Below, piece after piece: positions 12,811 through 57,804 of a DNA stretch of 64,000 nucleotides. Under the pieces are notes generated by a model, which made no database searches, was not told the DNA's origin, and saw only the letters and a program-made list of their open reading frames with translations. Position 1 is the first letter of the stretch. Every line of letters starts with the position of its first letter. A program made the position numbers and the translations under genes. Source of the stretch: Acheta domesticus (lineage: Eukaryota > Arthropoda > Insecta > Orthoptera > Gryllidae); contig JAHLJT010002630.1 of the NCBI GenBank assembly GCA_031308135.1, forward strand, positions 101,225,138 through 101,289,137, read 5' to 3'.

Positions 12811-13299
12811 TAACTTCGTTAACCGCGCCTTGAAAAAGAAACACGAGTATTCTCAGGCTTTAATTTCGTTAACCGCTCCTTGAAAAAGAACACGAGTATA
12901 CTCGGGCTTTAACTTCGTTAACCGCGCCTTGAAAAAGAACACGAGTATACTCGGGCTTTAATTTCGTTAACCGCTCCTTGGAAAAGAACACGAGTATACT
13001 CGGGCTTTAACTTCGTTAACCGCGCCTTGAAAAAGAACACGAGTATACTCGGGCTTTAATTTCGTTAACCGCTCCTTGAAAAAGAACACGAGTGGGCTTT
13101 AACTTCGTTAACCGCGCCTTGAAAAGAACACGAGTATACTCGGGCTTTAATTTCGTTAACCGCTCCTTGAAAAAAGACACGAGTAATACTCGGGCTTTAA
13201 TTTCGTTAACCGCTCCTTGAAAAAGAATACGAGTATACTCGGGCTTTAATTCGTTAACCGCTCCTTGAAAAAAGAAACACGAGTATACTCGGGCTTTTA
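12811..13299. repeat. About 50-59-bp minisatellite, ten units in alternating types
   Basis: Ten units each contain CGTTAACCG and most contain the 12-bp palindrome CGAGTATACTCG. Units 1-8 alternate strictly between an ACTTC...GCGCC type and an ATTTC...GCTCC type, so the repeating unit is a dimer. The last three units are all of the second type. The array ends 36 bp from the donor side of the exon at 13335-13422. Confidence 0.95.
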
Positions 13300-19552: not shown

Positions 19553-20604
19553 TTACTTCTCTACATAATCGCCGTTCACTTTTAAGCATTTTTCATACCG
19601 CTTCTTTAACCCCTCTGCATAGAAGCTTGGCGCCTGAGAATTGAACCAGTTGACAACGGCGTTTTTGAGTCCCTCTTCGGTTTCAAAACGTATTCCATCG
19701 AGCCACTGTTTAAAATGCAAGAAGAGGAAGTAGTCGCTAGTTGCAAGGTCGGGACTGTACGGTGGGTGGTCAAAAAGTTCCCAACGAAAATTTTGAATTT
19801 TCTCATTGGTTTTGTCAGCAGTGTGAGGACGCGCGTTATCGTGGAGGAGGATTACGCCAGATGACAGTTTCCCGCGGCGTTTGTTTTGGATCGTACGTCT
19901 CAATTTTTTGAGCGTTTTGCAGTACACGTCAGCTGTCATTGTTGTCCGACGTTCCATGAAAACCAAAAGAACACCGTCTTTGTCCCAGAAAACTGTAGCC
20001 ATCAATTTTCGACTTGTGTACTGAGTTTGCTTAAACTTTTTTGGTTTTGGTGAAGATGAGTGTCGCCACTACATCGATTGCAGTTTTGTTTCTGGGTTGG
20101 CGTAGGATGTCTCGTCCCCAGTAACAATGTGAGAAAACAAATCATCTCCATCTTGTTGATAACGGGCCAAAAACTTTCGTCCACTAGACATTCTTTGCTC
20201 TTTGTGGTGGTCGGTGAGCATTTTTGGTACCCACCTTGCACACAATTTGCTGTGACAATATTGTAAACAGTAGTGCATCCAAGTTGAGGAAATTTGTCAG
20301 CCAGACCACTAATCGTCAATCGACGATCAGATCGCTGTGTTTGGTCCACTTGTGAAACGATTTCATCGGTCTGGATACTGGGCCTGCCACTCCGCTCTTC
20401 GTCATGGACATTTGTTCGGCCATTTTTAAAATCACGGCACCATTGTCTAACCTTTCCTTCACTCGTAACTGTAGGTCCGTAAACCAGGCATAACTCCCGA
20501 TGAATTTCAGCAGCCGACGATCCTTTTGCACATAAGAAACGAATCACAGAACGCACTTCACAGTTGGCGGGATCAACGATTTTCGCGGCCATTGTTCTTT
20601 GCAT
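19553..20604 (-). pseudogene. mariner transposase (DD34D), one frameshift and one stop
   Basis: The N-terminal frame (from 20604) has the mariner HTH region and the pattern WCRDFKNGRTNVHDEERSGR. Near 20260 the frame shifts by one base. In the second frame the first catalytic Asp lies in VTGDET, an in-frame TAG follows at about 20069, then HDNARPHTA supplies the second Asp and YSPDLATSDYFLF the third. There are 34 residues between the second and third Asp, the DD34D spacing of mariner. All catalytic residues are present, so the copy is recent but disabled. The ends near 19535 and 20740 (TTAGGTACAA... and ...TTACTTTATGAAC) may be degraded terminal repeats. Confidence 0.9.
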
Positions 20605-39110: not shown

Positions 39111-40123
39111 GGTAAATATTACTTTTCATTTAATATCTTCCTGCGACGGGTCACCTTGTCAGATTATTTTGAACAGAGACATCCGCAAGAACTTATTTCA
39201 TAGGGGGATTGATATTGGTTTTAGGTAACATAATATTATTTTAATAAAAGATTCGTTAAGAATGTAAAGTTAGTTTCAGTGGCGGATTTAAGCGTGTGTT
39301 TTGGCAGGGAGCCCGGGGACCACTCCCCCAAAAACGATTTTTTTTCTTTTTTCGCATCTTAGGAATATACATTTTTTAATTCAAGCTAATAATTAAAAAT
39401 GTATTATTTCAAAAATATTTACGGCCAATCCGAACTGAAAGTGTCTAACCGTATTCTACTACCCGTATCCATCCATGATTTTGTCGAATAATGGAATGAG
39501 TGACCATCGTCGAATTGATACTACCAAAGGGGGACAAATTATAACTTTAATTATCCTAAGTATTTTATTTCAATAGTAAATGACAAAATCAATATCTTTG
39601 TCGTTTACGTAATTAAAATTTTGAGGGCAACACTTCATTTCACAGAAATTAGTACAATTAGATGACATTTACGTTTCCTGTAAACCAATATTTTGTTAAA
39701 TAGTCATTTATTACCAGAACGATTGGCGGCCATTTCAGTTTTCACTGTATTTTCATTCACAACAGAACAATGTATATAAACAGTTCATACACCGCATTTT
39801 GTCACGTGGTTGCCTTATAAATTTTTAAAAATACGCTACACTACCCAGAATATCGGTAATTCATTGAAAGTCTCTTCTCAATAGCACTTCTCTAGTGAGG
39901 GTGCTAGCAAATGAAATGAAATTGGTAACAGGATTCCCAGCTTATAATAAAAGAAAACATAAATTCAATACACACCACACTCAACAGATACTGGAAGTAT
40001 TGTCGCCTTTAGTGCTTTTCCTAGAAATCTTGATGCAACCAACATAAATGTAAGTTTAAATAGAAGACTCACAGTTGGCACAGAGCGGGGCGCCGTACTT
40101 GACGCACTTTGAAGAGGAGAAGT
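39111..40123. other. Downstream flank of the ankyrin gene
   Basis: No gene. CAGTGGCGGATTTAAG at about 39279 resembles a hAT terminus, but no partner end was found. The rest is AT-rich. Confidence 0.5.
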
Positions 40124-40548
40124 TTAGGCAGCATTCTCTTTCGTTGGGGAATGAAGAGAAGAGACAGGTACATCGGGAGTCGGGGACGAAGCGGGCTGTT
40201 TGGCGGTGGCGGCCTCCTCGTACACCTTCAGAAGATCGGTGACAGCGCGGCTCATCGCCAAGTCCACGGGCGTCTTGCCACGCTCGTCCGTGCAGCTAGT
40301 ACGCGCGCCGGCCGCCAGGAGCGTTCGCGCAGCAGCCATGCGCCCCCAGCGCGCCGCCCCGTGCAGCGGCGTGCGGCCGAACATGTCCTCCGCGCCCACG
40401 TCCGCCCCGCGGCTCAGCAGCTGTGCCACGCAGCGCGCGCACCCACGCGCAGCCGCCAGGTGCAGAGCGGTCTGGCCAACCGCGTTCCTCGCGCCGGCCG
40501 ACGCGCCCACGCGCCGCCCCAGCAGCAACGTCACCATGTCGCTCCTCC
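40124..40548 (-). CDS. Ankyrin-repeat gene, last coding exon (copy 1)
   Basis: It begins after TGCGCAG (acceptor AG at 40549-40550) in phase 1 and ends at TAA 40124-40126, giving 2 nt + 141 codons. It encodes the rest of one ankyrin repeat and about two and a half more. Visible cores are AVGQTALHLAAARG, MFGRTPLHGAARWG and RGKTPVDLAMS, each the x-G-x-T-[AP]-L-H-x-A-A consensus. A short Ser/Pro tail ends in PTKENAA. The phase fits the donor at 42991: G + GG makes Gly and restores a continuous repeat (ALHAAARAG + RSDMVTLLL). Upstream the acceptor and the first 76 nt of this exon are tandemly repeated about 14 more times. Confidence 0.85.
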
Positions 40549-41935
40549 CTGCGCACACCACATGAACAGATGCAGAGCGGTCTGGCCAACCGCACTCCTC
40601 GCGCCGGCCCACGCGCCCACGCGCCGCCCCAGCAGCAACGTCACCATGTCGCTCCTCCCTACGCACACCACATGAACAGATGCAGAGCAGTCTGGCCAAC
40701 CGCGTTCCTCGCGCCGGCCGACGCGCCCACGCGCCGCCCCAGCAGCAAGGTCACCATGCCGCTCCTCCCTGCGAACACCACATGAACAGATGCAGAGCAG
40801 TCTGGCCAACCGCGTTCCTCGCGCCGGCCGACGCGCCCACGCGCCGCCCCAGCAGCAAGGTCACCATGTCGCTCCTCCCTGCGCACACCACATGAACAGA
40901 TGCAGAGCGGTCTGGCCAACCGCGTTCCTCGCGCCGGCCGACGCGCCCACGCGCCGCCCCAGCAGCAACGTCACCATGTCGCTCCTCCCTACGCACACCA
41001 CATGAACAGATGCAGAGCAGTCTGGCCAACCGCGTTCCTCGCGCCGGCCGACGCGCCCACGCGCCGCCCCAGCAGCAAGGTCACCATGTCGCTCCTCCCT
41101 ACGCACACCACATGAACAGATGCAGAGCAGTCTGGCCAACCGCGTTCCTCGCGCCGGCCGACGCGCCCACGCGCCGCCCCAGCAGCAAGGTCACCATGTC
41201 GCTCCTCCCTGCGCACACCACATGAACAGATGCAGAGCAGTCTGGCCAACCGCGTTCCTCGCGCCGGCCGACGCGCCCACGCGCCGCCCCAGCAGCAAGG
41301 TCACCATGTCGCTCCTCCCTACGCACACCACATGAACAGATGCAGAGCAGTCTGGCCAACCGCGTTCCTCGCGCCGGCCGACGCGCCCACGCGCCGCCCC
41401 AGCAGCAAGGTCACCATGTCGCTCCTCCCTACGCACACCACATGAACAGATGCAGAGCAGTCTGGCCAACCGCACTCCTCGCGCCGCCCCAGCAGCAACG
41501 TCACCATGTCGCTCCTCCCTACGCACACCACATGAACAGATTCAGGGCAGTCTGGCCAACTGTGTTCCTCGCGGCCGCCCCAGCAGCAAGGCCACCATGT
41601 CGCTCCTCCCTACGCACACCAAATAAACAGATGATGAGCAGTCTGGCCAACCACGTTCCTCGTCGCTGCTCCCTAAGCACACCACATGAACAGGTGCAGA
41701 GCAGCCTGGCCAACCACGTTCCTCGCGCCGGCTGACGCGCCCACGCGCCGCCCCAGCAGCAACGTCACCATGTTGCTCCTCTCTACGCAAACCACATGAA
41801 CAGATGCAGAGCAGTCTGGCCAACCGCGTTCCTCGTCGCTCCTCCCTACGCACACCACATGAACAGATGCAGAGCAACCTAGCCAACAGCGTTCCTTGTC
41901 GCTCCTTTCTACGCACACCACATGAACAGATGCAG
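40541..41935 (-). repeat. Tandem array of a 3' splice junction (about 15 copies)
   Basis: Copies of GTGTGCG[C/T]AG plus the following exon start occur at about 40541, 40651, 40761, 40871, 40981, 41091, 41201, 41311 and 41421 (exact 110-bp period). They continue at 41511, 41602, 41667, 41773, 41838 and 41903, mostly with 65- or 90-bp spacing caused by internal deletions. Each 110-bp unit is about 34 nt of intron plus about 76 nt of exon. Units near the real exon are nearly identical; distal ones are degenerate. The many open frames on both strands here are repeat artefacts. Confidence 0.95.
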
Positions 41936-42235
41936 AGCAGCTATGTCAACGTGCGTGACGGCGCGAGAGGTGGGTTCGCAGGGTGATGAATCGGGGCGAG
42001 TGATCGAATGTGGTTTGGGAGACATTGAGGTGAAGGGCCCGAAGACGATTGAGGTAAGGGGGATTGGTGGCGAAAGGGGGATTGGTGGGTGGTGCTGTAA
42101 AGAGGCCGCAGGGCAGACTGTTAGTTCGGGAGAGTTGGGGGCCTACAAAATGTTAGGAGACTATCGGATGAGAGCGCGTGGAGGGGGAAATGCAGTGTGG
42201 ATGAAACGGGTGTGTGGCTGGAAGTACGTGGAGTG

Positions 42236-42990
42236 TTACGAGCGAAGTGTACCTGCGCCTGCGGGGTCTTGCAGCGCCGTCTCCCCCCGGGCGTCGGGGG
42301 CGAGTGGGGTGAAGGGACGGAGGGTTGAGGGACGTGAAGTGGGCGTGGTGTGTGGGGGTGTACCTGCGCGTGCGGCCGCGTGCAGCGCCGTCTCCCCTCG
42401 GGCGTCGGGGGCGAGTGGGGTGAAGGGATGGAGGGGTGAGGGACGTGGAGGGGGAGTGGTGTGTGGGGGTGAGGGGGCGGAGGGGTGAGGGACGTGAAGG
42501 GGGAGTGGTGTGTGGGGTGTGTACCTGCGCGTGAGGCCGCGTGCAGCGCCGTCTCCCCTCGTGCGTCGGGGGCGAGTGGGGTGAAGGGACGGAGGGTTGA
42601 GGGACGTGAAGTGGGCGTGGTGTGTGGGGGTGTACCTGCGCGTGCGGCCGCGTGCAGCGCCGTCTCCCCTCGGGCGTCGGGGGCGAGTGGGGTGAAGGGA
42701 TGGAGGGGTGAGGGACGTGGAGGGGGAGTGGTGTGTGGGGGTGAGGGGACGGAGGGGTGAGGGACGTGATGGGGCAGTGGTGTGTGGGGGTGAGGGGACG
42801 GAGGGGTGAGGGACTTGAAGGGGGAGTGGTGACTGGGGGTGAGGGGCGGAGGGGTGAGGGACGTGAAGGGGGAGTGGTGTGTGGGGGTGAAGGGACGGCG
42901 GGGTGAGGAACGTGAAGGGGGAGTGGTGTGTGGGGGTGAGGGGACGGAGGGTGAGGGACGTGAAGTGGGCGTGGTGTGTGGGGGGTGTAC
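42236..42990 (-). repeat. Array of a 5' splice junction and G-rich intron minisatellite
   Basis: The block ACGCCCGAGGGGAGACGG...GCAG|GTAC (minus strand), i.e. the end of the ankyrin exon with its donor, recurs at about 42250, 42357, 42523 and 42632 in addition to the real boundary at 42991. Between them lies a C-rich (minus strand) intron unit of about 50 bp containing CCCCCTTCACGTCCCTCACC. Plus-strand frames here are artefacts. Confidence 0.9.
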
Positions 42991-45606
42991 CTGCGCGTGC
43001 GGCCGCGTGCAGCGCCGTCTCCCCTCGGGCGTCGGGGGCGTCTGGGTCGGCGCCCGCCGCCCGCAGCGACAGCACCGTCGTCGCGTCGCGACGCCGCGAC
43101 GCCGCCCGCAGCTGCTCGCCCTGGGCGCGGGCGGCGGCGGGGGCGGCGGCGTGGGCGGACGCGGCCTCTGCTATCTTCCTCCGCGCGCGCCTTTTCCTCG
43201 TTAAAAACGTTTCTCCCAGAAATTCTTCCACCAGCCTTTTTATCTCACCGTCGGAAAGCTCTCTGTCGTCGAATTCCATCTGGTCTATGTCTGACTGGTC
43301 GGAGGTGTTGTCTTTGACTTCGCTTCCTGGAGGCTTCTGGACTTCTTTTTTCTGCAGCTGTTCCAAGAGCTTGCCGAGGGCTCGGGCGGCGGCGGGGGAA
43401 GCGGCAAACAGTTTTGAAGTTCTTTCTCGTTCTGTGCGTTCACGTTCTTCAGGCGTATCAAACCAACGATCCATAAGATTATATCTATTCCTTTCTTGCA
43501 AACTCCACATTTCCCTAGCATCTTTAGCACTTTGCACTACAAACGGTTCTTCCTGGTGCGCGGTTTTGTTTGCGATTTCACTGCCTGCGGTCGATGTTCC
43601 GATGTCTTCCACCCTCCTCTGCCTCGGATTCTTCGCTTGGGGTTGCATAATCTTCTAGGTTAATCTTCTCCATTTGCTCCAGTAAATCTCGAATCGACGT
43701 GTAGGTAAATTTGAAGTACTTGGGACGTTTAGGCTTTTCTTTTTTCTTCGAATCACTGCATTTATTTGATTCCGTAGAGGAAAGGGATCCCTCAGCAGTT
43801 GCCGGCACAGCATCCAAGGACCCACTTTCATTATTCTCATTACTTGAAGATGATGCTTCCAGATCTTCAGTCATAATTTCCTCCGACTTTGCTTGCGATT
43901 TGTCTGCCTCAATAAACTTCGTCCTCCTTTTCTACGAGATGTTCGTCAGGACTTTCCGCAATGCCCTTTCGCTCTTTTCTTAAGGAAGTTTCCTCCTCCA
44001 TCACTGTATTCTGTATTTTCAGGAAGGTGGATAATACTCAGAAGTTGTTGACTGATCGTCTGAAGAATCGCTCTTACTGTTCTCACTACTTGAAGGCGAT
44101 GACACTAAGTCTTTACTCTCGATCGCATCTGATTCCTCTTGCGAGTTCTCCGCCTCAAAGAACTGCATCCCCTTCTCCTCGAGATCTTTTCGGGACATCT
44201 CAATATGCTTTCCTTGCTTCCTTAAGGAAGCTCTGTTAACCTCCGAACCGTTGATTTTCTTTAAGGTGGAGGATTTTCCAGGAGTTGCTAACTCGGCCTC
44301 CGAAGAGTCGCTCTCACCGCCCTCACTACTTGAAGACGTTGCCACCAAGTCTTTGCTCTTCATCGTCTGTAACTCTTCTTGTGACTTCCCAGCCTCACTG
44401 AACTTCATCATTTTTTTCTTTGGAATGGTCTCCCCGAGTGACTTTAATTGTCTTTCCATGCTTCCCTTTGGAAGATTCCTCCTCCATCTCCGAATCTTTG
44501 ACATTTACGAGGGTGAAAGTTTCACTAGGAGTTGACAACTCGGCCTTCGAAGACTCGTTCTCACTGCTCTCACTACTTGAAGGCAATGCCACGGAGTCTT
44601 TACTCTTCATCACCTCTGACTCCTCTTGCGCCTTTGAAATTTCATTTGTACCTCGGGTTTCCGTCTCCGACTTTGGAGTTTTAACTGAATCGCCTTGATT
44701 ACCTGAGTCGATGAGTATCTGAAACTTCGACTCTTTCAAATCTCCCGTGTCTGAAACATCCAATGAGTTCGCAGTTTTCTCTAGCACAGCGCCTAACGCG
44801 ACGGACCTGTTTTTCTCGAGCGGCAACACCTCCGGGTCGTCATGTGCCTCGTGACGGACGGAAGGCTGTTCTGAGATGTGTTCGTCCCCTTGGAATCTGT
44901 GTGTCTCCTGGGCGAACGACGATTTATAGGCGACTTGTTCAACGGACAGGGCGGCAGCCAGTAGTTTCTTGATATGCTCAATTGCGTTTTCGTCAGGAGG
45001 TGCCTGGAGATCCACGGAAGCCTCCAACATCTGCCTTTCCAGGTCCGATTCCTCCGGGTCGATTTCTCGTTTTCCACCTCCATCTCCCGAGAAGTCGCAA
45101 TACCGTTTAAAAACGGCGTCGATGGCTTTGCTCGCGTCGACGATCTCTCCGTCGAGGACGCGCCTCCACCGCTCTTCCAGCGCCGCCTCGTTGAGCTTCC
45201 ACGTCCGCTCCACGTCCCCCTTCCGCACCTCGAGGACTCCGGCGCAGGCGCCGTCCAGGGCCCGAGCGCAGCGCGCGGAGGCGCTGAGGACGGCGCTGCG
45301 CCAATGGGCGTCCAGCGCGGCTTCGCCCGCCCTCCAGCGCTCCTCCAGCTCCTCCAGCTGCCGCCTCCGGCAGTCCTCCGCGGCGGCGGCCAGCGCCTCC
45401 ATCTTCTCGGTAATCGCCCGCTCGGCGGCACTTGTCAGCTGCTCCTCCACCTCCGCTTCTCTCCTCCTCCATCGCTCCTCTAATTCCGCCTCTTTCCTGC
45501 TCCACCAAGCCTCCCACGTGGTGTCCAGCTTCTGACTCGCTTCTTCCACCTTCCCTCCATCCTTTCTGCCACTTATTCTCTTGTTACCGCGTCTTCGCTT
45601 CCCCAT
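42991..45606 (-). CDS. Coiled-coil/acidic/ankyrin protein, main exon (copy 1)
   Basis: Starts at ATG 45606 (MGKRRRGNKR) just after a possible acceptor (TTTTTCAG at about 45624). It ends at donor GCAG|GTAC, 42991/42990. Order: basic N-terminus; Arg/Glu/Trp-rich coiled coil with recurring ERWRR (about 20-165); acidic Ser/Glu-rich region with four degenerate ~80-residue modules ([IM]xSKDxVxxxSSSE); a Lys-rich KKKEKPKRPKYFKFTYTS; an E/R-rich segment; then the first ankyrin repeat (LRAAGADPDAPDARGETALH). Four single-base indels versus copy 2 (about 43614, 43930, 44036, 44408) break the frame. Without them the exon is 2614 nt = 871 codons + 1, matching copy 2. I do not recognise the protein. Role unknown; ankyrin repeats imply protein binding. 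Confidence 0.75.
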
Positions 45607-45829
45607 ATCGGTGGGTTAAGACCTGAAAAAGAAATTATATTTAGACATACAGAAGATTAGTTAAATATTCAGATCATGGATTTTAATACACTTTTTATCG
45701 ACTTCGTACTTGGCTAGAGAGCCTTTAGCAGTTTTCAAAAGAAATGCTTGGAACAAGAACATTGATGGCCATGCATTACGGATTGTTAATTATGTTAAAT
45801 AATTTCTCAATAAATACTATTATTATTTT

Positions 45830-46475
45830 GCATTCTTATCATTCTCATTAACTTCTTCAGTTGTTCTTCTAATTGCACATTCTCTAAACAGTCCAGAATA
45901 TTCTTTTCCATATTCTAATTTCATCACGTAACTCGTTTATTGTTTGTTTTAAAATCAGTTTGAAGACCATCTTCACAAACTGCGTTTTCATTAACTGACT
46001 CCTCTGGAACACTATCCGTCACATCCATTGTTGCTTCTGATAACAGTACATCCACTGATTTGTGCATATTCCCTGAAACTAGTCAAATGGTTCGACTAGG
46101 ATTAATTTTTTCAAAACCAATAGGCAACTTCTTGGTAGGCACTGCGTCAGGTTTTAAGTTTCGATTTTTTCTGTGGTGTATAATTTAATAATACCTGACG
46201 CAATGGTATTGCAAAGCTATCCTAAGCAATGTGGATAGAACAAATGCGCGCTGAAAATAATTACAATTAACGTCACTATAATGAAATAATTTACAGAAAC
46301 AAAAGACACCTTAATTAGTTAATACCGTTCATGCCTTGATCTTATCCTTTCTTCTACAAACATTTATCCACGCTTCACATAAATTGGCATCTTTCGGGAA
46401 AGAAAAATACTTAATGTCTGTTCCCTTCGTTTTCTTGTTCCAGTTTTTGCAACCAAAAATAGGGCACGACGGCAT
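45830..46475 (-). pseudogene. THAP-domain gene, copy 1 (broken as assembled)
   Basis: Exon 1 (46326-46475) reads MPSCPIFGCKNWNKKTKGTD, then FSFPKD and EAWINVCRRKD. This is the start of a THAP C2CH zinc finger (C-x4-C, F-P, W). A 75-nt intron follows (GTATTA...TTTTCAG). Exon 2, from 46250, supplies RICSIH (C-x2-H) and KPDAVPT, the AVPT box that closes THAP domains. After it comes an acidic stretch (SVPEESVNENAVCEDGL) and a Leu-rich coiled coil. Defects: a one-base deletion before the donor, an in-frame TAG after the C-x2-H, an extra A before KPDAVPT and a TGA after NPSRTI. THAP proteins bind DNA and many come from P-element-like transposases. Confidence 0.75.
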
Positions 46476-46714
46476 TGTTTATTTTATTTCAATATCAATT
46501 CAATATATGTTCACCTTTCTGCCACTAAAAAAACTACTAGAAAACTACAAACACAAAGCAAATCGCGATTACAAAAATTCGGCGTGTACTCAACGAGCGC
46601 GTACCATACAATCTCACTATATAGGCGCCAAGCAGGCGAGCATCCATGACGTCATGCGCAGAAGAGAACGAAATTTCGTTCGGGATCCGTCTCACCTTTA
46701 TTCTTACACCATGG
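46476..46714. other. Upstream region of the THAP gene, possible promoter
   Basis: It contains CTATATAG near 46617-46624 and a CATGACGTCATG (CRE-like palindrome TGACGTCA at about 46647-46654). A minus-strand promoter is plausible but not demonstrated. The same sequence occurs in copy 2 near 54960-55040. Confidence 0.3.
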
Positions 46715-48003
46715 CTAGCGCCTAAACCATACGTACGATTTCTTCCAAAACGGATATTCCCCGATCGATCTGGTTCTAGTCAAAGCTTTGAGATTTTGAA
46801 AAAGATTCTGTAGAATTTGGGGGAACTTTACACGAAGCCCCCGGACATTTTCAAAATTTTCTCAAAACGGCTCCAATTTTTTTTTTTTAATTTCTTGTAA
46901 GAATAGCGGTAAAATACACTTATTAAGGTGGCATAGGTCCGATTTTCATGGATAATTCTGAAGTTTCGAAAATTGCAAAAGTTTAAATATTTTTCGGCGA
47001 CTTTCTGGAACTACAAAAATTGAAGATAGAGATTTTTTCTTTTAAATAAAATTTGTTGTCTAAAGTGAGTTCTTTCATTAAGGTCACGTGCATAAACTTT
47101 TAGTAGTTTTCGAGCAATATTGCGTGCAATACTTGCAATTTTAAAAAAATTACAAAAACAAGATTTTCTCAAAAACGGCTCCAAATTTTTTCTTTAAACT
47201 TTTGGTAGGTATACTACCTAATGTATTTTATGAGATGACAAAAACGCCATATTGCTCTATTCTTTTGTTTCCCTCAAAAATTGGAAAAATGTAATTTCTT
47301 TGACTTGTCTCTCACGTTGTTAATATACAAATTAGCGGTGATTTTTTACATTACCTTTACGATTACATATGCTTTAAATAAAGTCAAGTAAAGTTTCTCG
47401 AAAACACAACCGTTTTCTGTGAAAAGTAGCTCAAAATTCAGCATTTTCAGAAACGCTCAAACGCCATTTTCTCAAATACAGCTGCAAATTTTTTCTTCAA
47501 ACTTTTGTAACGGATAGTGCTAATTACACTCTTAAATATGACGTAAAATTTATCTTGAGTTATTTTTTGTTTTTCAAAAATTACATAAATGTATTTTTTT
47601 TAAAGATCTCTCACATCTTTATATGCAAGCAATTTATAAAGATGATTATATTTGTGAGTGTAAGTGCTTCAAATAACTTCAAATAAAGTAATTTGAAAAC
47701 TCAAAACTTTTCTGTGAAAATGAGCTTCAAATTTCGCATTTTTAGTAGGGCTAAAACGCAATTTTCTTTAAAATGGCACATAATTTTTAAAAGAAAATTG
47801 CCATTAGGACTAGGATTTTGTGTTCTTAATATTCTAAAATTAACATTACTAGCAATAAAGAAAATAACAAAAAAATGTAGTTTGTGCGGTGATAGATGGC
47901 AGCTGGCAAGAAAGAGTGTGTGGCAATTCCGAATAGCTAGCGAAGACCAAAAGAAATAGAAAACTAATACAGGAAAGTTTGTGCCATTCTCTAGCACCAC
48001 TAG
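46715..48003 (+). repeat. Element 'X' inside duplication copy 1
   Basis: Starts at GCTAGCGCCTAAACC (its first part is missing) and ends at the CTAGCACCAC terminus. The equivalent copy at 55090-56395 has the same truncation, so the insertion predates the duplication. Confidence 0.8.
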
Positions 48004-48693
48004 TTATACAATAAAAAGGAAAACGGAAAAACTCTGAAACAAGTTACGTTAATTAATGAAACATTTTATTAATTCGAATTTTGCTTACATCCCTTAATTA
48101 TTTAATTAAACGAATATTTTTCCACTGAATTAATATTTTTTGTCAATATATTTTCTAACAATATTATTGGAAATTTTGGAGCAAGAGATATGATCATGTC
48201 AGATTTTACGGTAAATGCTGCAACTAGCGTTTCAACATTTGAACTTGATTTCTCACTTGATTAACTAGATTAACACAATTAACACTAAATTAACATATTA
48301 GTTTTAAAATATTGAAAAGGAGGACACTTTTCAAGGAAGGGCAGTGCTGACAAAAGATGTCCTTCTAAAGGAGGGCTGTCCTTCCTAAAGGAGGATGATC
48401 TTATGTAAAACTAATAAATTCATATTTTGCATTGTGGTATGTTTACTTTAAAAAATCGTATTCATCAATCAAATTCAAATTTAAGGATCTCTCAGAACTA
48501 AACAAATTTCATTCAAATGCTTAAGTGTATCAGATTTGCAGGTACAAATTTTGCGAAAATTCTCCATTGAAATGAAAGTCAATTGTTGTCTCTTTGAAGA
48601 GTTACATTTTAGTGACTTCAACTTAAAAGGGACATTCTCTTGGAGGATTTGTAAGGAACTTTTTCTTTCTTTCACATCAAATGTACAAAATGC
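48004..48693. other. Non-coding part of the duplicated block
   Basis: AT-rich sequence containing two close copies of a TCCTTCCTAAAGGAGG/TCCTTCTAAAGGAGG word around 48360-48400. A 50-codon open stretch (VQILRKFSIEMKVNCCLFEE) at about 48540-48690 is also open in copy 2, where it too is short. Function unknown. Confidence 0.4.
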
Positions 48694-49467
48694 CAGTGGC
48701 GTAGCGTCAGGGGACGCTGAGATGCTGAGCATCCCCGTATATAAGAACCTTAAATACTGTATTGATAATCTTACAAGTGGTCTGTTGAGCGAAACACGTT
48801 TTGTATTAATTTAAAATTGATTTCCTATGATTGAATTCGGCGGGCTGTTGAAGCTGGCCTCTGATTGGTTGGAAGCTAAAATACTTCAGCGTCTGCCGCC
48901 AGTTTGCGACGAGCAATGACGCATGCGCAGATGGCGAGGTGCCCCTCTCCCCTCTTCACCCCTGGCCCAGAGAAACCCGACTGCTTTACGCTAGCGTCTA
49001 CTGCGGAAAGATGCTCGTTTTGTGCACGAGAGCGCAGCACACTTCAGGCGTTCAGTAAATTATCTTTCTCTCACTCGGGAGTCCCCGCTTGGTCATGGGT
49101 ACAAACTGTAGAAATAGTGCGTGACTACTATTTCTTAATTAATATCCAAGAAATTGTATTATCTCTTAAATAGATTACATATTATTTAAGTCTGCAATGT
49201 ATAAATTAACAAATGGTCTTATTGCCATTCGCGTATAAGAATTAAAGCTGAGCCATTGTATAATTTGCTTTCAAGACATCGGCAGCCCTGACTGCTGTGA
49301 GGATTTTGTGGGAAGCGCCTACACCGTCGTAAGCAATCGAGATCGTGGAAGTAGTCCCAGTGTATCTGCCTTGTGTTGCGTTCGCCTGTTAGACGAAGTA
49401 CTTGATAGTGACATTTTGTGTGTTATTGTTGAGCATCCCCAAACGTGTGAGTCACGCTACGCCACTG
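48694..49467. mobile_element. hAT-type element present only in duplication copy 1
   Basis: Ends CAGTGGCGTAGCGT and ACGCTACGCCACTG. It is flanked by CAAAATGC (48686-48693) and CAAAAATGC (49468-49476). Copy 2 has the intact empty site TGTACAAAATGCCAAG near 57049-57064. The interior is 774 bp without a recognisable transposase. Confidence 0.95.
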
Positions 49468-49998
49468 CAAAAATGCCAAGTTCATTTGAGATAAAAATTA
49501 AAAAAATTTGTTTCAAAATATACAAAGTTACAGTAGACTTTGGAAACTGTGAATTTACACTTAGTGAACTTCGGTTTGTCCGGAACCAAGTAAATTACAA
49601 ATAAACACCAAATGATTTGGTAATAGTGAACATAGGAAAAACAGCCCAGCAAAAAAAGCATTTGTCTTTGCCTCAGGACCCCAAATTCCAAAGGCAGGTG
49701 AGAAACTTGTTTTCTTTTTGTGGCATTTAATATGAATGTAAAGGACTGATGGAAAATACTACTTGAGGAATTTAGTAACGAAATTACTGAAATAATTATC
49801 CGTCCTCTTACTTTTGAACAACCTAAATTACATTCTCACATGATTCAAATGATAACCAAAATAATGTTACTCACGAACGTCTTGTCAAAAAAGGTTGAAA
49901 ATAGATGAACCTAATAGCAATGCTATCAATAAAAATGGAATTTGTTCTTGTATAAAATTGATCGGCATTTAAATTTTGTGTGTCCCTTGTCAAAAAAC

Positions 49999-50998
49999 NN
50001 NNNNNNNNNNNNNNNNNNNNNNNNNNNNNNNNNNNNNNNNNNNNNNNNNNNNNNNNNNNNNNNNNNNNNNNNNNNNNNNNNNNNNNNNNNNNNNNNNNNN
50101 NNNNNNNNNNNNNNNNNNNNNNNNNNNNNNNNNNNNNNNNNNNNNNNNNNNNNNNNNNNNNNNNNNNNNNNNNNNNNNNNNNNNNNNNNNNNNNNNNNNN
50201 NNNNNNNNNNNNNNNNNNNNNNNNNNNNNNNNNNNNNNNNNNNNNNNNNNNNNNNNNNNNNNNNNNNNNNNNNNNNNNNNNNNNNNNNNNNNNNNNNNNN
50301 NNNNNNNNNNNNNNNNNNNNNNNNNNNNNNNNNNNNNNNNNNNNNNNNNNNNNNNNNNNNNNNNNNNNNNNNNNNNNNNNNNNNNNNNNNNNNNNNNNNN
50401 NNNNNNNNNNNNNNNNNNNNNNNNNNNNNNNNNNNNNNNNNNNNNNNNNNNNNNNNNNNNNNNNNNNNNNNNNNNNNNNNNNNNNNNNNNNNNNNNNNNN
50501 NNNNNNNNNNNNNNNNNNNNNNNNNNNNNNNNNNNNNNNNNNNNNNNNNNNNNNNNNNNNNNNNNNNNNNNNNNNNNNNNNNNNNNNNNNNNNNNNNNNN
50601 NNNNNNNNNNNNNNNNNNNNNNNNNNNNNNNNNNNNNNNNNNNNNNNNNNNNNNNNNNNNNNNNNNNNNNNNNNNNNNNNNNNNNNNNNNNNNNNNNNNN
50701 NNNNNNNNNNNNNNNNNNNNNNNNNNNNNNNNNNNNNNNNNNNNNNNNNNNNNNNNNNNNNNNNNNNNNNNNNNNNNNNNNNNNNNNNNNNNNNNNNNNN
50801 NNNNNNNNNNNNNNNNNNNNNNNNNNNNNNNNNNNNNNNNNNNNNNNNNNNNNNNNNNNNNNNNNNNNNNNNNNNNNNNNNNNNNNNNNNNNNNNNNNNN
50901 NNNNNNNNNNNNNNNNNNNNNNNNNNNNNNNNNNNNNNNNNNNNNNNNNNNNNNNNNNNNNNNNNNNNNNNNNNNNNNNNNNNNNNNNNNNNNNNNNN
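49999..50998. other. Scaffold gap of exactly 1000 N
   Basis: A run of N of fixed length, so the true size is unknown. Left of it copy 1 ends at TTGTCAAAAAAC, a site present in copy 2 at about 57561. Right of it the sequence resumes inside the G-rich intron array of the copy-2 ankyrin gene. The missing DNA must include the last exon and acceptor side of copy 2 if that copy is real. Confidence 0.98.
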
Positions 50999-51377
50999 GT
51001 GAAGGGACGTGAAGGAGGGTGTGGGGGAGGGACGTGAAGGGGGAGTGGTGTGTGGGGTGAGGGGCGGAGGGGTGAGGAACGTGAAGGGGGAGTGGTGTGT
51101 GGGGGTGAGGGGACGGAGGGGTGAGGGACGTGAAGGGGGGTGGTGTGTGGGTGCGTACCTGCGCGTGCGGCCGCGTGCAGCGCCGTCTCCCGCCGGGCGT
51201 CGGGGGCGAGTGGGGTGAGGGGACGGAGGGGTGAGAGACTTGAAGGGGGAGTAGTGTGTGGGGGTGAAGGGACGTGAAGGAGGGTGTGGGGGAGGGACGT
51301 GAAGGGGGAGTGGTGTGTGGGGGTGAGGGGACTGAGGGTTGAGGGACGTGAAGTGGGCGTGGTGAGTGGGGGTGTAC
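50999..51377 (-). repeat. 5' splice-junction array, copy 2 (partial)
   Basis: Same G-rich intron units and one further copy of the exon end with donor at about 51158, next to the real donor at 51378/51377. Interrupted by the scaffold gap. Confidence 0.85.
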
Positions 51378-53991
51378 CTGCGCGTGCGGCCGCGTGCAGC
51401 GCCGTCTCCCCTCGGGCGTCGGGGGCGTCGGGGTCGGCGCCCGCCGCCCGCAGCGACAGCACCGTCGTCGCGTCGCGGCGCCGCGACGCCGCCCGCAGCT
51501 GCTCGCCCTGGGCGCGGGCGGCGGCGGGGGCGGCGGCGTGGGCGGACGCGGCCTCTGCTATCTTCCTCCGCGCGCGCCTTTTCCTCGTTAAAACGTTTCT
51601 CCCAGAAATTCTTCCACCAGCCTTTCCATCTCACCGTCGGAAAGCTCTCTGTCGTCGAATTCCATCTGGTCTATGTCTGACTGGTCGGAGGTGTTGTCTT
51701 TGACTTCGCTTCCTGGAGGCTTCTGGACTTCTTTTTTCTGCAGCTGTTCCAAGAGCTTGCCGAAGGCTCGGGCGGCGGCGGGGGAAGCGGCAAACAGTTT
51801 TGAAGTTCTTTCTCGTGCTGTGCGTTCACGTTCTTCAGGCGTATCAAACCAACGATCCATAAGATTATATTTATTCCATTCTTGCAGACTACACATTTCC
51901 CAAGCATCTTTAGCACTTTTCACTACAAACGGTTCTTCCTGGTGCGCAGTTTTGTTTGCGATTTCACTGCCTGCGGTCGATGTTCCGATGTCTTCCACCT
52001 CCTCTGCCTCGGATTCTTCGCTTGGGGTTGCATAATCTTCTAGGTTAATCTTCTCCATTTGCTCCAGTAAATCTCGAATCGACGTGTAGGTAAATTTGAA
52101 GTACTTGGGACGTTTAGGCTTTTCTTTTTTCTTCGAATCACTGCATTTATTTGATTCCGTAGAGGAAAGGGATCCCTCAGCAGTTGCCGGCACAGCATCC
52201 AAGGACCCACTTTCATTATTCTCATTACTTGAAGATGATGCTTCCAGATCTTCAGTCATAATTTCCTCCGACATTGCTTGCGATTTGTCTGCCTCAATAA
52301 ACTTCGTCTCCTTTTCTACGAGATGTTCGTCAGGACTTTGCGCAATGCCCTTTCGCTCTTTTCTTAAGAAAGTTTCCTCCTCCATCACTGTATTCTGTAT
52401 TTTCAGGAAGGTGGATAATACTTCAGAAGTTGTTGACTGATCGTCTGAAGAATCGCTCTTACTGTTCTCACTACTTGAAGGCGATGACACTAAGTCTTTA
52501 CTCTCGATCGCATCTGATTCCTCTTGCGAGTTCTCCGCCTCAAAGAACTGCATCCCCTTCTCCTCGAGATCTTTTCGGGACATCTCAATATGCTTTCCTT
52601 GCTTCCTTAAGGAAGCTCTGTTAACCTCCGAACCGTTGATTTTCTTTAAGGTGGAGGATTTTCCAGGAGCTGCTAACTCGGCCTCCGAAGAGTCGCTCTC
52701 ACCGCCCTCACTACTTGAAGACGTTGCCACCAAGTCTTTGCTCTTCATCGTCTGTAACTCTTCTTGTGACTTCCCAGCCTCACTGAACTTCATCCTTTTT
52801 TCTTTGGAATGGTCTCCCCGAGTGACTTTAATTGTCTTTCCATGCTTCCCTTTGGAAGATTCCTCCTCCATCTCCGAATCTTTGACATTTACGAGGGTGA
52901 AAGTTTCTCTAGGAGTTGACAACTCGGCCTTCGAAGACTCGTTCTCACTGCTCTCACTACTTGAAGGCAATGCCACTGAGTCTTTACTCTTCATCACCTC
53001 TGACTCCTCTTGCACCTTTGAAATTTCATTTGTACCTCGGGTTTCCGTCTCCGACTTTGGAGTTTTAACTGAATCGCCTTGATTACCTGAGTCGATGAGT
53101 ATCTGAAACTTCGACTCTTTCAAATCTCCCGTGTCTGAAACATCCAATGAGTTTTGCAGTTTTCTCTAGCACAGCGCCTAACGCGACGGACCTGTTTTTC
53201 TCGAGCGACAACACCTCCGTGTCGTCATGAGCCTTGTGACGGACGGAGGGCTGCTCTGAGATGTGCTCGTCCCCTTGGGATCTGTGTGTCTCCTGGGCGA
53301 ACGACGATTTATAGGCGACTTGTTCAACGGACAGGGCGGCAGCCAGTAGTTTCTTGATATGCTCAATTGCGTTTTCGTCAGGAGGTGCCTGGAGATCCAC
53401 GGAAGCCTCCAACATCTGCCTTTCCAGGTCCGATTCCTCCGGGTCGATTTCTGGTTTTCCACCTCCATCTCCCGAGAAGTCGCAATATCTTTTAAAAACG
53501 GCGTCGATGGCTTTGCTCGCGTCGACGATCTCTCCGTCGAGGACGCGCCTCCACCGCTCTTCCAGCGCCGCCTCGTTGAGCTTCCACGTCCGCTCCGCGT
53601 CCCCCTTCCGCCCCTCGAGGACTCCTGCGCAGGCGCCGTCCAGGGCCCGAGCGCAGCGCGCGGAGGCGCTGAGGACGGCGCTGCGCCAATGGGCGTCCAG
53701 CGCGGCTTCGCCCGCCCTCCAGCGCTCCTCCATCTCCTCCAGCTGCCGCCTCCGGCAGTCCTCCGCGGCGGCGGCCAGCGCCTCCATCTTCTCGGTAATC
53801 GCCCGTTCGGCGGCACTTGTCAGCTGCTCCTCCACCTCCGCTTCTCTCCTCCTCCATCGCTCCTCTAATTCCGCCTCTTTCCTGCTCCACCAAGCCTCCC
53901 ACGTGGTGTCCAGCTTCTGACTCGCTTCTTCCACCTTCCCTCCATCCTTTCTGCCATTTATTCTCTTGTTACCGCGTCTTCGCTTCCCCAT
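51378..53991 (-). CDS. Coiled-coil/acidic/ankyrin protein, main exon (copy 2)
   Basis: The second copy of the exon at 42991-45606, with the same domain order. Only two indels break the frame: an extra T at about 53153 and a missing A at about 51594. Copy 1 is open at both places, while copy 2 is open at all four places where copy 1 is broken. Length is 2614 nt, exactly the corrected length of copy 1 (871 codons + 1 nt). Start ATG is at 53991, preceded by the possible 3' splice site TTTCCTTTTCAG, so an upstream non-coding exon is likely. The last exon lies in or beyond the gap. Substitutions between copies are few and scattered. Function unknown. Confidence 0.75.
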
Positions 53992-54209
53992 ATCGGTGGT
54001 TAAAGACCTGAAAAGGAAATTATATTTAGACATACAGAAAATTAGTTAAATATTCAGATCATGGATTTTAATACACTTTTATCGACTTCGTACTTGGCTA
54101 GAGAGCCTTTAGCAGTTTTCAAAAGAAAATGCTTGGAACAAGAACATTGATGGCCATGCATTACGGATTGTTAATTATGTTAAATAATTTCTCAATAAAT
54201 ACTATTATT

Positions 54210-54860
54210 ATTTTGCATTCTTATCATTCTCATTAACTTCTTCAGTTGTTCTTCTAATTGCACATTCTCTAAACAGTCCAGAATATTCTTTTCCATATTC
54301 TAATTTCATCACGTAACTCGTTTATTGTTTGTGTTAAATCAGTTTGAAGACCATCTTCACAAACTGCGTTTTCATTAACTGACTCCTCTGGAACACTATC
54401 CGTCACATCCATTGTTGCTTCTGATAACAGTACATCCACTGATTTGTGCATATTCCCTGAAACTAGTCAAATGGTTCGACTAGGATTAATTTTTTCAAAA
54501 CCAATAGGCAACTTCTTGGTAGGCACTGCGTCAGGTTTTAAGTTTCGATTTTTCTGTGGTGTATAATTTAATAATACCTGACGCAATGGTATTGCAAAGC
54601 TATCCTAAGCAAAGTGGATAGAACAAATGCGCGCTGAAAATAATTACAATTAACGTCACTATAATGAAATAATTTACAGAAACAAAAGACACCTTAATTA
54701 GTTAATACCGTTCATTGCCTTGATCTTATCCTTTCTTCTACAAACATTTATCCACGCTTCACATAAATTGGCATCTTTCGGGAAAGAAAAATACTTAATG
54801 TCTGTTCCCTTCGTTTTCTTGTTCCAGTTTTTGCAACCAAAAATAGGGCACGACGGCATT
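54210..54860 (-). pseudogene. THAP-domain gene, copy 2 (broken as assembled)
   Basis: Same structure as 45830-46475. Exon 1 is 54709-54860, with the donor at G|GTATTA, and exon 2 starts at 54633. The join G + CG makes Ala and gives ...MNARICSIHF. The AVPT box is in frame here (KNRNLKPDAVPTKK), unlike copy 1. Defects: an extra A in exon 1 near 54841 (copy 1 is intact there), the in-frame TAG after C-x2-H shared with copy 1, and the shared TGA after NPSRTI. The two shared stops suggest a true pseudogene or an unrecognised further intron. The single-base indels look like sequencing errors. Confidence 0.75.
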
Positions 54861-55089
54861 GTTTATTTTATTTCAATATCAATTCAATATATGTTCACCT
54901 CTCTGCCACTAAAAAACTACTAGAAAACTACAAACACAAAGCAAATCGCGATTACAAAAATTCGGCGTGTACTCAACGAGCGCGTACCATACAATCTCAC
55001 TATATAGGCGCCAAGCAGGCGAGCATCCATGACGTCATGCGCAGAAGAGAACGAAATTTCGTTCGGGATCCGTCTCACCTTTATTCTTA

Positions 55090-56395
55090 CACCATGGCTA
55101 GCGCCTAAACCATACGTACGATTTCTTCCAAAACGGATATTCCCCGATCGATCTGGTTCTAGTCAAAGCTTTGAGATTTTGAAAAAGATTCTGTAGAATT
55201 TGGGGGTACTTTACACGAAGCCCCCGGACATTTTCAAAATTTTCTCAAAAACGGCTCCAAATTTTTTCTTTGAATTTCTTGTAAGAATAGCGTAAAATAC
55301 ACTTATTAAGGTGGCATAGGTCCGATTTTCATGGATAATTCTGAAATTTCGAAAATTGCAAAAGTTTAAATATTTTTCGGCGACTTCCTGGAACTACAAA
55401 ATTGAAGATAGAGATTTTTCTTTTAAATAAAATTTGTTGTCTAAAGTGAGTTCTTTCATTAAGGTCATGTGCATAAACTTTTAGTAGTTTTCGCGCAATA
55501 TTGCGTGCAATACGTGCAATTTTAAAAAAAATTACAAAAACAAGATTTACTCAAAAACGGCTCCAAATTTTTTCATTAAACTTTTGGTAGGTATACTACC
55601 TAATGTATTTTATGAGATGACAAAAACGCCATTTTGCTCTATTCTTTTGTTTCTTCAAAAATTGGAAAAATGTAATTTCTTTGACTTGTCTCTCACGTTG
55701 TTAATATACACATTAGCGGTGATTTTTTTCACATTACCTTTACGATTCCATATGCTTTAAATAAAGTCAAGTAAAGTTTCTCGAAAACACAACCGTTTTC
55801 TGTGAAAAGTAGCTCAAAATTCAGCATTTTCAGAAACGCTCAAACGCCATTTTCTCAAATACGGCTGCAAATTTTTTCTTCAAACTTTTGTAACGGATAG
55901 TGCTAATTACACTCTTAAATATGACGTAAAGTTTATCTTGAGTTATTTTTTGTTTTTTCAAAAATTACATAAATGTAATTTTTTTGAAAGATCTCTCACA
56001 TGTTTAATATGCAAGCAATTTATAAAGATGATTATATTTGTGAGTGTAAGTGCTTCAAATAACTTCAAATAAAGTATTTTGAAAACTCAAAACTTTTCTG
56101 TGAAAATGAGCTTCAAATTTCGCATTTTTAGTAGGGCTAAAACGCAATTTTCTTTAAAACGGCACATAATTTTTAAAAGAAAATTGCCATTTAGGACTAG
56201 GATTTTGTGTTCTTTAATATTCTAAAATTAACATTACTAGCAACAAAGAAAATGACAAAAAAATGTAGTTTGTGCGGTGATAGATGGCAGCTGGCAAGAA
56301 AGAGTTTGTGGCAATTCCGAATAGCTAGCGAAGACCAAAAGAAATAGAAAACTAATACAAGAAAGTTTGTGCCATTCTCTAGCACCACTAATTAT
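55090..56395 (+). repeat. Element 'X' inside duplication copy 2
   Basis: The counterpart of 46715-48003 with the same 5' truncation point and 3' end. Confidence 0.8.
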
Positions 56396-57444
56396 ACAAT
56401 AAAAAGGAAAACGGAAAAACTCTTAAACAAGTTACGTTAATTAATGAAACATTACATCCCTTAATTATTTAATTAAACGAATATTTTTCCACTGAATTAA
56501 TATTTTTTGTCAATATATTTTCTAACAATATTATTGGAAATTTGGGAGCAAGAGATATCCATCATGTTAGATTTTACAGTAAATGCTGCAACCAGCGTTC
56601 AACATTTGAACTTGATTTCTCACTTGATTAACTAGATTAACACATTAACACTAGATTAACGTATTAGTTTTAAAATATTGAAAAGTAGGACACTTTTCAA
56701 GGAAGGGCAGTGCTGACAAAAGATATCCTCCTAAAGGAGGACTGTCCTTCCTAAAGGAGGATGATCTTGTGTAAAACTAATAAATTCATATTTTGTAATG
56801 TGTATGTTTAATTTAAAAAATCATATTCATAAATCAAATTCAAAATTTAAGGATCTCTCAGAACTAAACAAATTTCATTCAAATGCTTAAGTGTATCAGA
56901 TTTTCAGGTACAAATTTTGCGAAAATTCTCCATTGAAATGAAAGTCAATTTTTGTCTCTTTGAAGAGTTACATTTTAGTGACTTCAACTTAAAAGGGACA
57001 TTCTCTTGGAGGATTTGTAAGGAACTTTTTCTTTCTTTCACATCAAATGTACAAAATGCCAAGTTCATTTGAGATAAAAATTAAAAAAATTTGTTTCAAA
57101 ATATACAAAGTTACAGTAGACTTTGAAAAACTGTGAATTTACACTTAGTGAACTTCGGTTGTCCCGAACCAAGTAAATTATAAATAAACACGAAATGATT
57201 TTGTAATAGTGAACATAGGAATACAGCCCAGCAAAACAGCATTTGTCTTTGCCTCAGGACCCCAAATTCCAAAGGCAGGTAGAGAAACTTGTGATTTCTT
57301 TTTGTGGCATTTAAGATGAATGGAAGGGACTGAGGGAAAATACTACTGAAGGAAATGAGTACAAATTACTGAAATAATTATCTGTCCTCTTAATTTTGAA
57401 CAACCTAAATATACATTCTCACATGATTCAAATGATACCAAAAT
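56396..57444. other. Non-coding part of duplication copy 2, with empty hAT site
   Basis: It aligns with 48004-49860 minus the hAT element. The empty target site lies at about 57049-57064. AT-rich, no gene recognised. Confidence 0.6.
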
Positions 57445-57804
57445 ATGTTACTCAACGAACATCTCGTAAAAAAAGTTAAAATAGATGAACATAATAGCAA
57501 TGCTATCAATAAAAAATGGAATTTGTTCTTGTATAAATTGAATCAGCATTTAAATTTTGTGTGTCCCTTGTCAAAAAAACAATCAAACATAATGAAAAAA
57601 GGAGAAACTAAACTTTTTAAAGAAATTTCAGTTCTTAGAAAGAAAATGAAAGAGATGTATGACCTGTTTGGAAATATCAAGAATGACTACCATAATGATC
57701 TATACAAAAAGTATAAACAACTTTACAGGCTTCAATTGAGGAACACTAAACTGAATCAATTAAAAACTAAAATAAACAATTTAAAAAACAGATTAAAATA
57801 TTAA
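57445..57804 (+). CDS. Hypothetical Lys/Leu-rich coiled-coil ORF
   Basis: An open frame of 119 codons, very rich in Lys, Asn and Leu, with a heptad-like C-terminal half (ISVLRKKMKEM..., LQLRNTKLNQLKTKINNL). No domain recognised. The related stretch in copy 1 (about 49855-49998) has frame differences and is cut by the gap. It could be an exon of an unknown gene or a transposon accessory frame. AT-rich composition makes a chance ORF of this length less likely but possible. Confidence 0.35.
   Translation: MLLNEHLVKKVKIDEHNSNAINKKWNLFLYKLNQHLNFVCPLSKKQSNIMKKGETKLFKEISVLRKKMKEMYDLFGNIKNDYHNDLYKKYKQLYRLQLRNTKLNQLKTKINNLKNRLKY

Follow-up and report, generated by a model that had tools for sequence, protein, structure and literature searches.

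A probable two-sided mirage: minisatellites across both boundaries of one intron in an ankyrin-repeat gene of the cricket Acheta domesticus

How is an intron removed when its acceptor has been copied until fifteen near-identical versions stand in a row? The question is raised by an ankyrin-repeat gene on the minus strand of a 64,000-nucleotide stretch of the Acheta domesticus genome (assembly GCA_031308135.1, contig JAHLJT010002630.1, positions 101,225,138 to 101,289,137 of the forward strand; hereafter the window, with coordinates counted from its first letter). A preliminary description had noted the acceptor and exon start as a tandem array of about 15 copies, 110-bp units with shorter ones beyond them, and our results agree with this. 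That description stopped at 41935, however, and missed a second amplification, at the donor end of this intron. From the sequence, the answer that we consider probable is a fast-changing, two-sided mirage, that is, minisatellites lying across both boundaries of one intron that would be spliced out with it through the outermost donor and the outermost acceptor.

The last ankyrin exon occupies 40124..40548 (minus strand), encodes 141 residues including a split codon, matches Ank_2 (E 2.3e-18), and has a stop codon that ends at 40124. Fifteen acceptor units extend on the minus strand from 41929 to 40460; 14 of them precede the one whose acceptor leads into the complete exon. Each unit consists of 21 nt of intron ending in AG and up to 89 nt of exon; in a full unit this exonic part equals the first 89 nt of the last ankyrin exon, and not the first 76 nt as previously proposed. 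The repeat far exceeds chance expectation: Tandem Repeats Finder (TRF) reports 40457-41486 with a 110-bp period, 9.4 copies, 97% matches and a score of 1934, and two probes, an intronic motif and an exonic sequence without the AG, recover the same 15 units. Units 3 and 7-14 are 110 bp long, units 1, 2 and 4 are 63 bp, unit 5 is 91 bp and unit 6 is 90 bp. Unit 15, whose intronic part and exon-proximal acceptor (A15) lie at 40549..40569 (minus strand), has its AG at 40549, continues into the full exon at 40548-40124 and opens it from the outermost donor. The 14 upstream (decoy) units, at 40570..41929 on the minus strand and identified by repeat search, motif and exonic probe, have AG ends at 41909, 41846, 41783, 41673, 41610, 41519, 41429, 41319, 41209, 41099, 40989, 40879, 40769 and 40659 (units 1-14). 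As had been claimed, the AG is present in every unit (15/15), and most (12/15, the exceptions being units 3, 4 and 13) keep GTGTGCG[CT]AG.

Tandem alternative acceptors of the NAGNAG type lie 3 nt apart by definition, and this class was set aside for units with acceptors spaced 63-110 nt. Recursive splice sites with zero-length exons, in which the AG is by definition directly followed by GT, were also rejected, since none of the 15 acceptors has a GT in that position. Three units folded as RNA no better than shuffled sequences (z 0.88, -0.05 and 0.42), and in an Rfam scan of 40000-46000 no family reached threshold.

Upstream of the intron lies a long exon (42991..45606, minus strand) of 871 codons, with the outermost donor, D1, following 42991. 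The 871 codons are open after six single-base length differences between this gene (copy A) and a second copy in the window (copy B, described below) are dropped or filled. The exon ends as CAG/GTAC (slash at the boundary) in phase 1; joined to 40549 it yields an unbroken ankyrin stretch in frame, and the D1-A15 join together with the long exon gives a predicted protein 1,012 residues long. Five units including D1 carry the donor end of the intron; each is composed of exon end, donor and intron start, with last exon bases at 42991, 42636, 42525, 42364 and 42253 (D1-D5) and GTAC after each. A probe omitting the donor recovers the same five units in copy A, and CAG/GTAC is then found in 5/5. The donor-side array (42253..42990, minus strand) thus repeats the upstream exon's 3' end four more times, with CAG/GTAC after each copy, and interspersed is a 49-bp GC-rich minisatellite, so that the copied splice site makes up only part of the array.

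Together the two arrays make up 87% of the 2,442-bp intron and leave outside them a non-repeated part of 323 bp (41930..42252, minus strand). The innermost donor unit runs into this non-repeated intron and the outermost one derives from the real exon, an order that would be expected from tandem duplication across the boundary. Innermost sites D5 and A1 are 344 bp apart and presumably mark the ancestral intron, which could have grown about sevenfold, from 344 bp to 2,442 bp, through duplication of its two ends.

What would the alternative pairings produce? From D1, only one of the 15 acceptors (40549) opens the full exon, and with any of the 14 upstream ones a stop follows, 22 to 78 residues on for units 1-6 and 36 (where the next AG is TAG) or 42 (where it is CAG) residues on for units 7-14. 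The preliminary description had given 26-28 residues throughout, a figure that these readings replace. Its claim that any upstream unit truncates the protein holds from D1 (14/14) and fails across all 75 donor-acceptor pairs, of which five reach the normal stop: unit 14 gives the full frame with D2 or D3, and D4-A15, D5-A15 and D1-A15 also keep the frame. Counted from 43648, D4-A15 and D5-A15 encode 569 and 606 residues versus 360 for D1-A15. By reading from D1, then, a field of potential decoy acceptors able to truncate the ankyrin domain, as previously described, is present.

A second locus carries the same two-sided layout. When 460 bp of the array were compared with the genome, all 11 matches fell at two sites of a single scaffold: within the window, and at 100994064-100995218 on the opposite strand. 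This paralogue, C, lies about 270 kb away in a 29.7-kb surrounding that contains no N, and has 12 acceptor units and three donor units, with CAG/GTAC after 3/3 donors. Of the matches of more than 250 bp between this surrounding and the window, those outside the gene are scattered pieces, without a continuous flank. From C's first donor 9/11 decoys truncate; the other two, through units 111 and 109 bp long that sequence errors may have produced, open the full frame. An array-free paralogue representing the ancestral state was sought in the assembly and not found; near copies of the N-terminal exon number three (A, B and C) and those of the last exon two (A and C), the other 39 of the 41 matches to the last exon not exceeding 192 bp in length, at 70-85% identity.

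Core units are as similar between loci (identity 0.972) as within A (0.973) or C (0.979) and do not sort by locus, and unit A06, with its 20-bp deletion, is identical to C09. At the intron-side edge, identity among units of the same locus is 0.862 in A and 0.704 in C, the latter value being partly due to a shifted alignment of unit C03. In a tree of the units most branches are short and support is mixed. Outside the units, the last exons of A and C are identical at 256/257 nt and then at 72/121 aligned positions (from 99.6% to 60%); the upstream exons share the last 175 nt before D1 with 6 mismatches (ungapped), the blastn match ending there at 43168; and the intron part adjoining the acceptor array is identical at 122/144 positions. 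Because the core units are unsorted by locus and the last exons fall from near-identity to 60%, we conclude from these comparisons that sequence has probably been exchanged between the two paralogues, and the pattern fits gene conversion or other exchange around both arrays. As an observation in its own right, the break in identity at nucleotide 258 of the last exon (40124-40291 in A) is conversion-like and gives the paralogue proteins different C-termini.

Copy B (50999..57578, minus strand) lies beyond the sole gap in the window, 1,000 N at 49999..50998. Sequence before the gap matches sequence after it over at least 6 kb (42687-49998 against 51052-57578, a contig end against the start of the next contig), the 6,487 aligned bases differing by 175 substitutions. 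Since the contig end matches the next contig start at the gap, and since no last exon of B was found, B is probably the other haplotype of A, left unmerged. Its donor units end at 51378 and 51159, with CAG/GTAC after the 2/2 seen (51159-51378), and its acceptor side is absent from the window. The donor-side arrangement and spacing differ between A and B, and would differ between haplotypes if B is indeed one. Unmerged haplotypes at such a gap could be counted as a false tandem duplicate by automatic annotation. Copy A also contains a 783-bp insertion at 48695-49478 that is absent from B; with its inverted ends (GTGGCGTAGC and its complement) and short flanking direct repeats it looks like an insertion polymorphism of a DNA transposon.

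Contrary to the earlier statement that no gene with such a layout had been described, amphioxus has tandem repeats of this kind, called mirages, across exon-intron boundaries of Adh3, the globins BflGb6 and BflGb9, troponin C and PGBD5 (PMC3087553, PMC3902484). In BflGb6 the unit joins the 3' end of an intron to the 5' part of the next exon, as in the cricket acceptor array, and measures 150-160 bp, one haplotype having 6 units and another 3 (PMC3087553). Such repeats can occur at 5' as well as 3' boundaries, many but not all units keep the AG or GT, and RT-PCR (reverse transcription polymerase chain reaction) suggested undisturbed splicing (PMC3087553, PMC3902484), while concerted evolution acts inside the arrays and excludes their edges (PMC3087553). 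What we observe in the cricket corresponds closely: units spanning the boundaries, retained dinucleotides (AG in 15/15; GT in 5/5 for A, 2/2 for B and 3/3 for C), and a homogenised core with diverged edges. The cricket case differs in being in an insect, in affecting both boundaries of the same intron (15 and 5 units), and in sharing units with a paralogue 270 kb away.

Variable internal tandem repeats are also described for human segmental duplications, where half lie in coding exons and those at exon-intron boundaries are able to change splicing and are said to form novel introns (PMC2812944). Like the cricket arrays these are variable boundary repeats in recently duplicated genes, but the cricket arrays amplify an existing intron's own splice sites. 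Among the matches listed in our literature search no insect mirage was found, only those of lancelets. The kind is therefore already known; as far as the papers listed there show, the apparently new features are the insect, the two ends of one intron and the units shared between paralogues.

Under the mirage explanation, tandem duplication across both boundaries of the intron would have produced the arrays, which would then expand, contract and homogenise through unequal exchange and gene conversion that would extend across to the other paralogue as well. We infer that the duplicates are intronic and that D1 pairs with A15. Exon definition, in which the site nearest the other end of a real exon wins, would produce this pairing, and the repeats would leave with the intron; the choice of 40549 may be directed by the 3' end of the terminal exon. 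Exon definition is expected at 40549 because D1-A15 yields an ankyrin repeat of ordinary spacing with no insert. Decoy splicing, if any, would be minor noise yielding a truncated ankyrin domain. Reed and Maniatis reportedly used tandem duplicates of splice sites in splicing experiments. In such experiments copies compete, as they may in the cricket, and the winner depends on the unit of recognition, with intron-centric and exon-centric proximity rules predicting the innermost and the outermost pair, respectively (PMC9225289); only few sites compete there, as opposed to a natural array of 15 here.

The explanation should be held with some caution, since several observations weigh against it. 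Intron definition would favour the innermost pair, D5-A1, at 344 bp, whose use would yield a truncated protein. Within units 1-6, differences are fewer in the acceptor segment (4/126) than in the exonic part (26/354), although this is not significant (P 0.13). The remaining points come from related crickets. When 1,736 candidates were scored with residues 630-800, three passed, all from Gryllus, at 51-55% identity. P0243 of G. bimaculatus joins the same two exons, ends with the same ankyrin exon and has no insert at the junction, yet the initial residues of that exon (GRSDMVTLLLGRRVGASAG in A) are missing from its model. The models P0241 and P0242 of G. longicercus have no last exon and break off shortly past the donor, after about 20 further residues with many Pro, Ser or Thr. 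By sequence comparison, the Gryllus models back both exons and not the exact D1-A15 junction (0/3); either misprediction or real alternative forms would fit the discrepancies. Because no Gryllus model confirms this junction, the mirage explanation is slightly weakened and that of functional decoys slightly raised. With 348 residues from the ankyrin-bearing end as query, a protein search yielded 1,687 matches, the best 120 of these 1,687 being general ankyrin-repeat proteins. At 40070-40187 on the minus strand, a Cys-rich frame other than that of the ankyrin exon is open; close to a GTGAGT at 40072, it overlaps the exon's end, perhaps by chance. It could hint at a further exon, a candidate that was set aside; the ankyrin exon is kept as the last one because paralogue C and P0243 end nearby.

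Could the upstream acceptors be in use? A working decoy field, in which some transcripts would splice to upstream units and lose part of the ankyrin domain, in a proportion set by the unit number, seems to us unlikely, judging from the sequence. The uniform truncation from D1 would suit it, as would the G. longicercus models without the last exon, a branch-like YTNAY in 15/15 units with its A 14 nt ahead of the AG end, and the exon-proximal acceptor of C, a TAG no better than its decoys (10/11 TAG). The acceptor segments are pyrimidine-poor (58-63%), however, the same layout in amphioxus is reported with normal splicing, and the two decoys of C (2/11) that restore the full frame indicate that truncation is not kept, unless they reflect sequence errors. 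Moreover, the AG is kept in all 14 decoys no more than unit divergence predicts (P ~0.36, units treated as independent), and units 7-14 show a trend (acceptor segment 4/168, exonic part 8/712) opposite to that of units 1-6. With retention as expected at the observed divergence and opposite trends in the two sets, we see no evidence in the sequence that decoys are retained for use. To a further idea we attach only a very small probability: that exchange between the paralogues keeps their donor and acceptor unit numbers alike, and that these numbers set the share of transcripts losing the ankyrin domain. If true, copy number would be a heritable dial on protein form, a splice-choice minisatellite.

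The donor array might instead be partly exonic, D4 or D5 joining A15 to add a Pro/Thr/His-rich insert and give longer isoforms. Both pairs reach the normal stop, the frame from D1 to past D5 is stop-free, two of three frames are open there compared with 9% of base shuffles, and P0241 and P0242 read beyond the donor. Stops are rare in a C-rich repeat, however, and its frames are not independent, and P0243 has no junction insert; we give this little chance. Decaying duplicates, with the arrays as debris of no consequence, are very unlikely as well. Frameshifting single-base differences in both A and B, and a pN/pS between their long exons of 0.51 (14/581 synonymous and 25/2,032 nonsynonymous sites), which is weakly below 1 (P 0.05), would be in keeping with decay, but 871 codons are open once those differences are dropped or filled, and Gryllus retains long relatives, one with an ankyrin end. 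Least credible, and in our judgement highly improbable, is that noisy long reads inflated the arrays. A and B often differ in length by a single base (six such cases within 2.6 kb of coding sequence), and the two resemble unmerged haplotypes around a 1,000-N gap; the units nevertheless carry their own substitutions and deletions, and an assembly artefact is unlikely because gap-free C has a similar array with another number and order of units.

Elsewhere in the window, a mariner-type transposase is split over two overlapping reading frames at 19553-20604; for the piece at 19553-20005, the named ones among the best 120 of 907 matches come from spiders, insects and one lizard. Ten copies of a 49-bp tandem repeat lie at 12811-13297, far from the gene.

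In conclusion, a two-sided mirage probably accounts for this intron. The locus would offer a natural test of how the spliceosome selects a single acceptor among 15 near-identical ones and a single donor among 5, when 5/75 pairs keep the frame to the normal stop. A large two-sided case in two paralogues of an insect suggests that splice-site minisatellites are not a peculiarity of lancelets.
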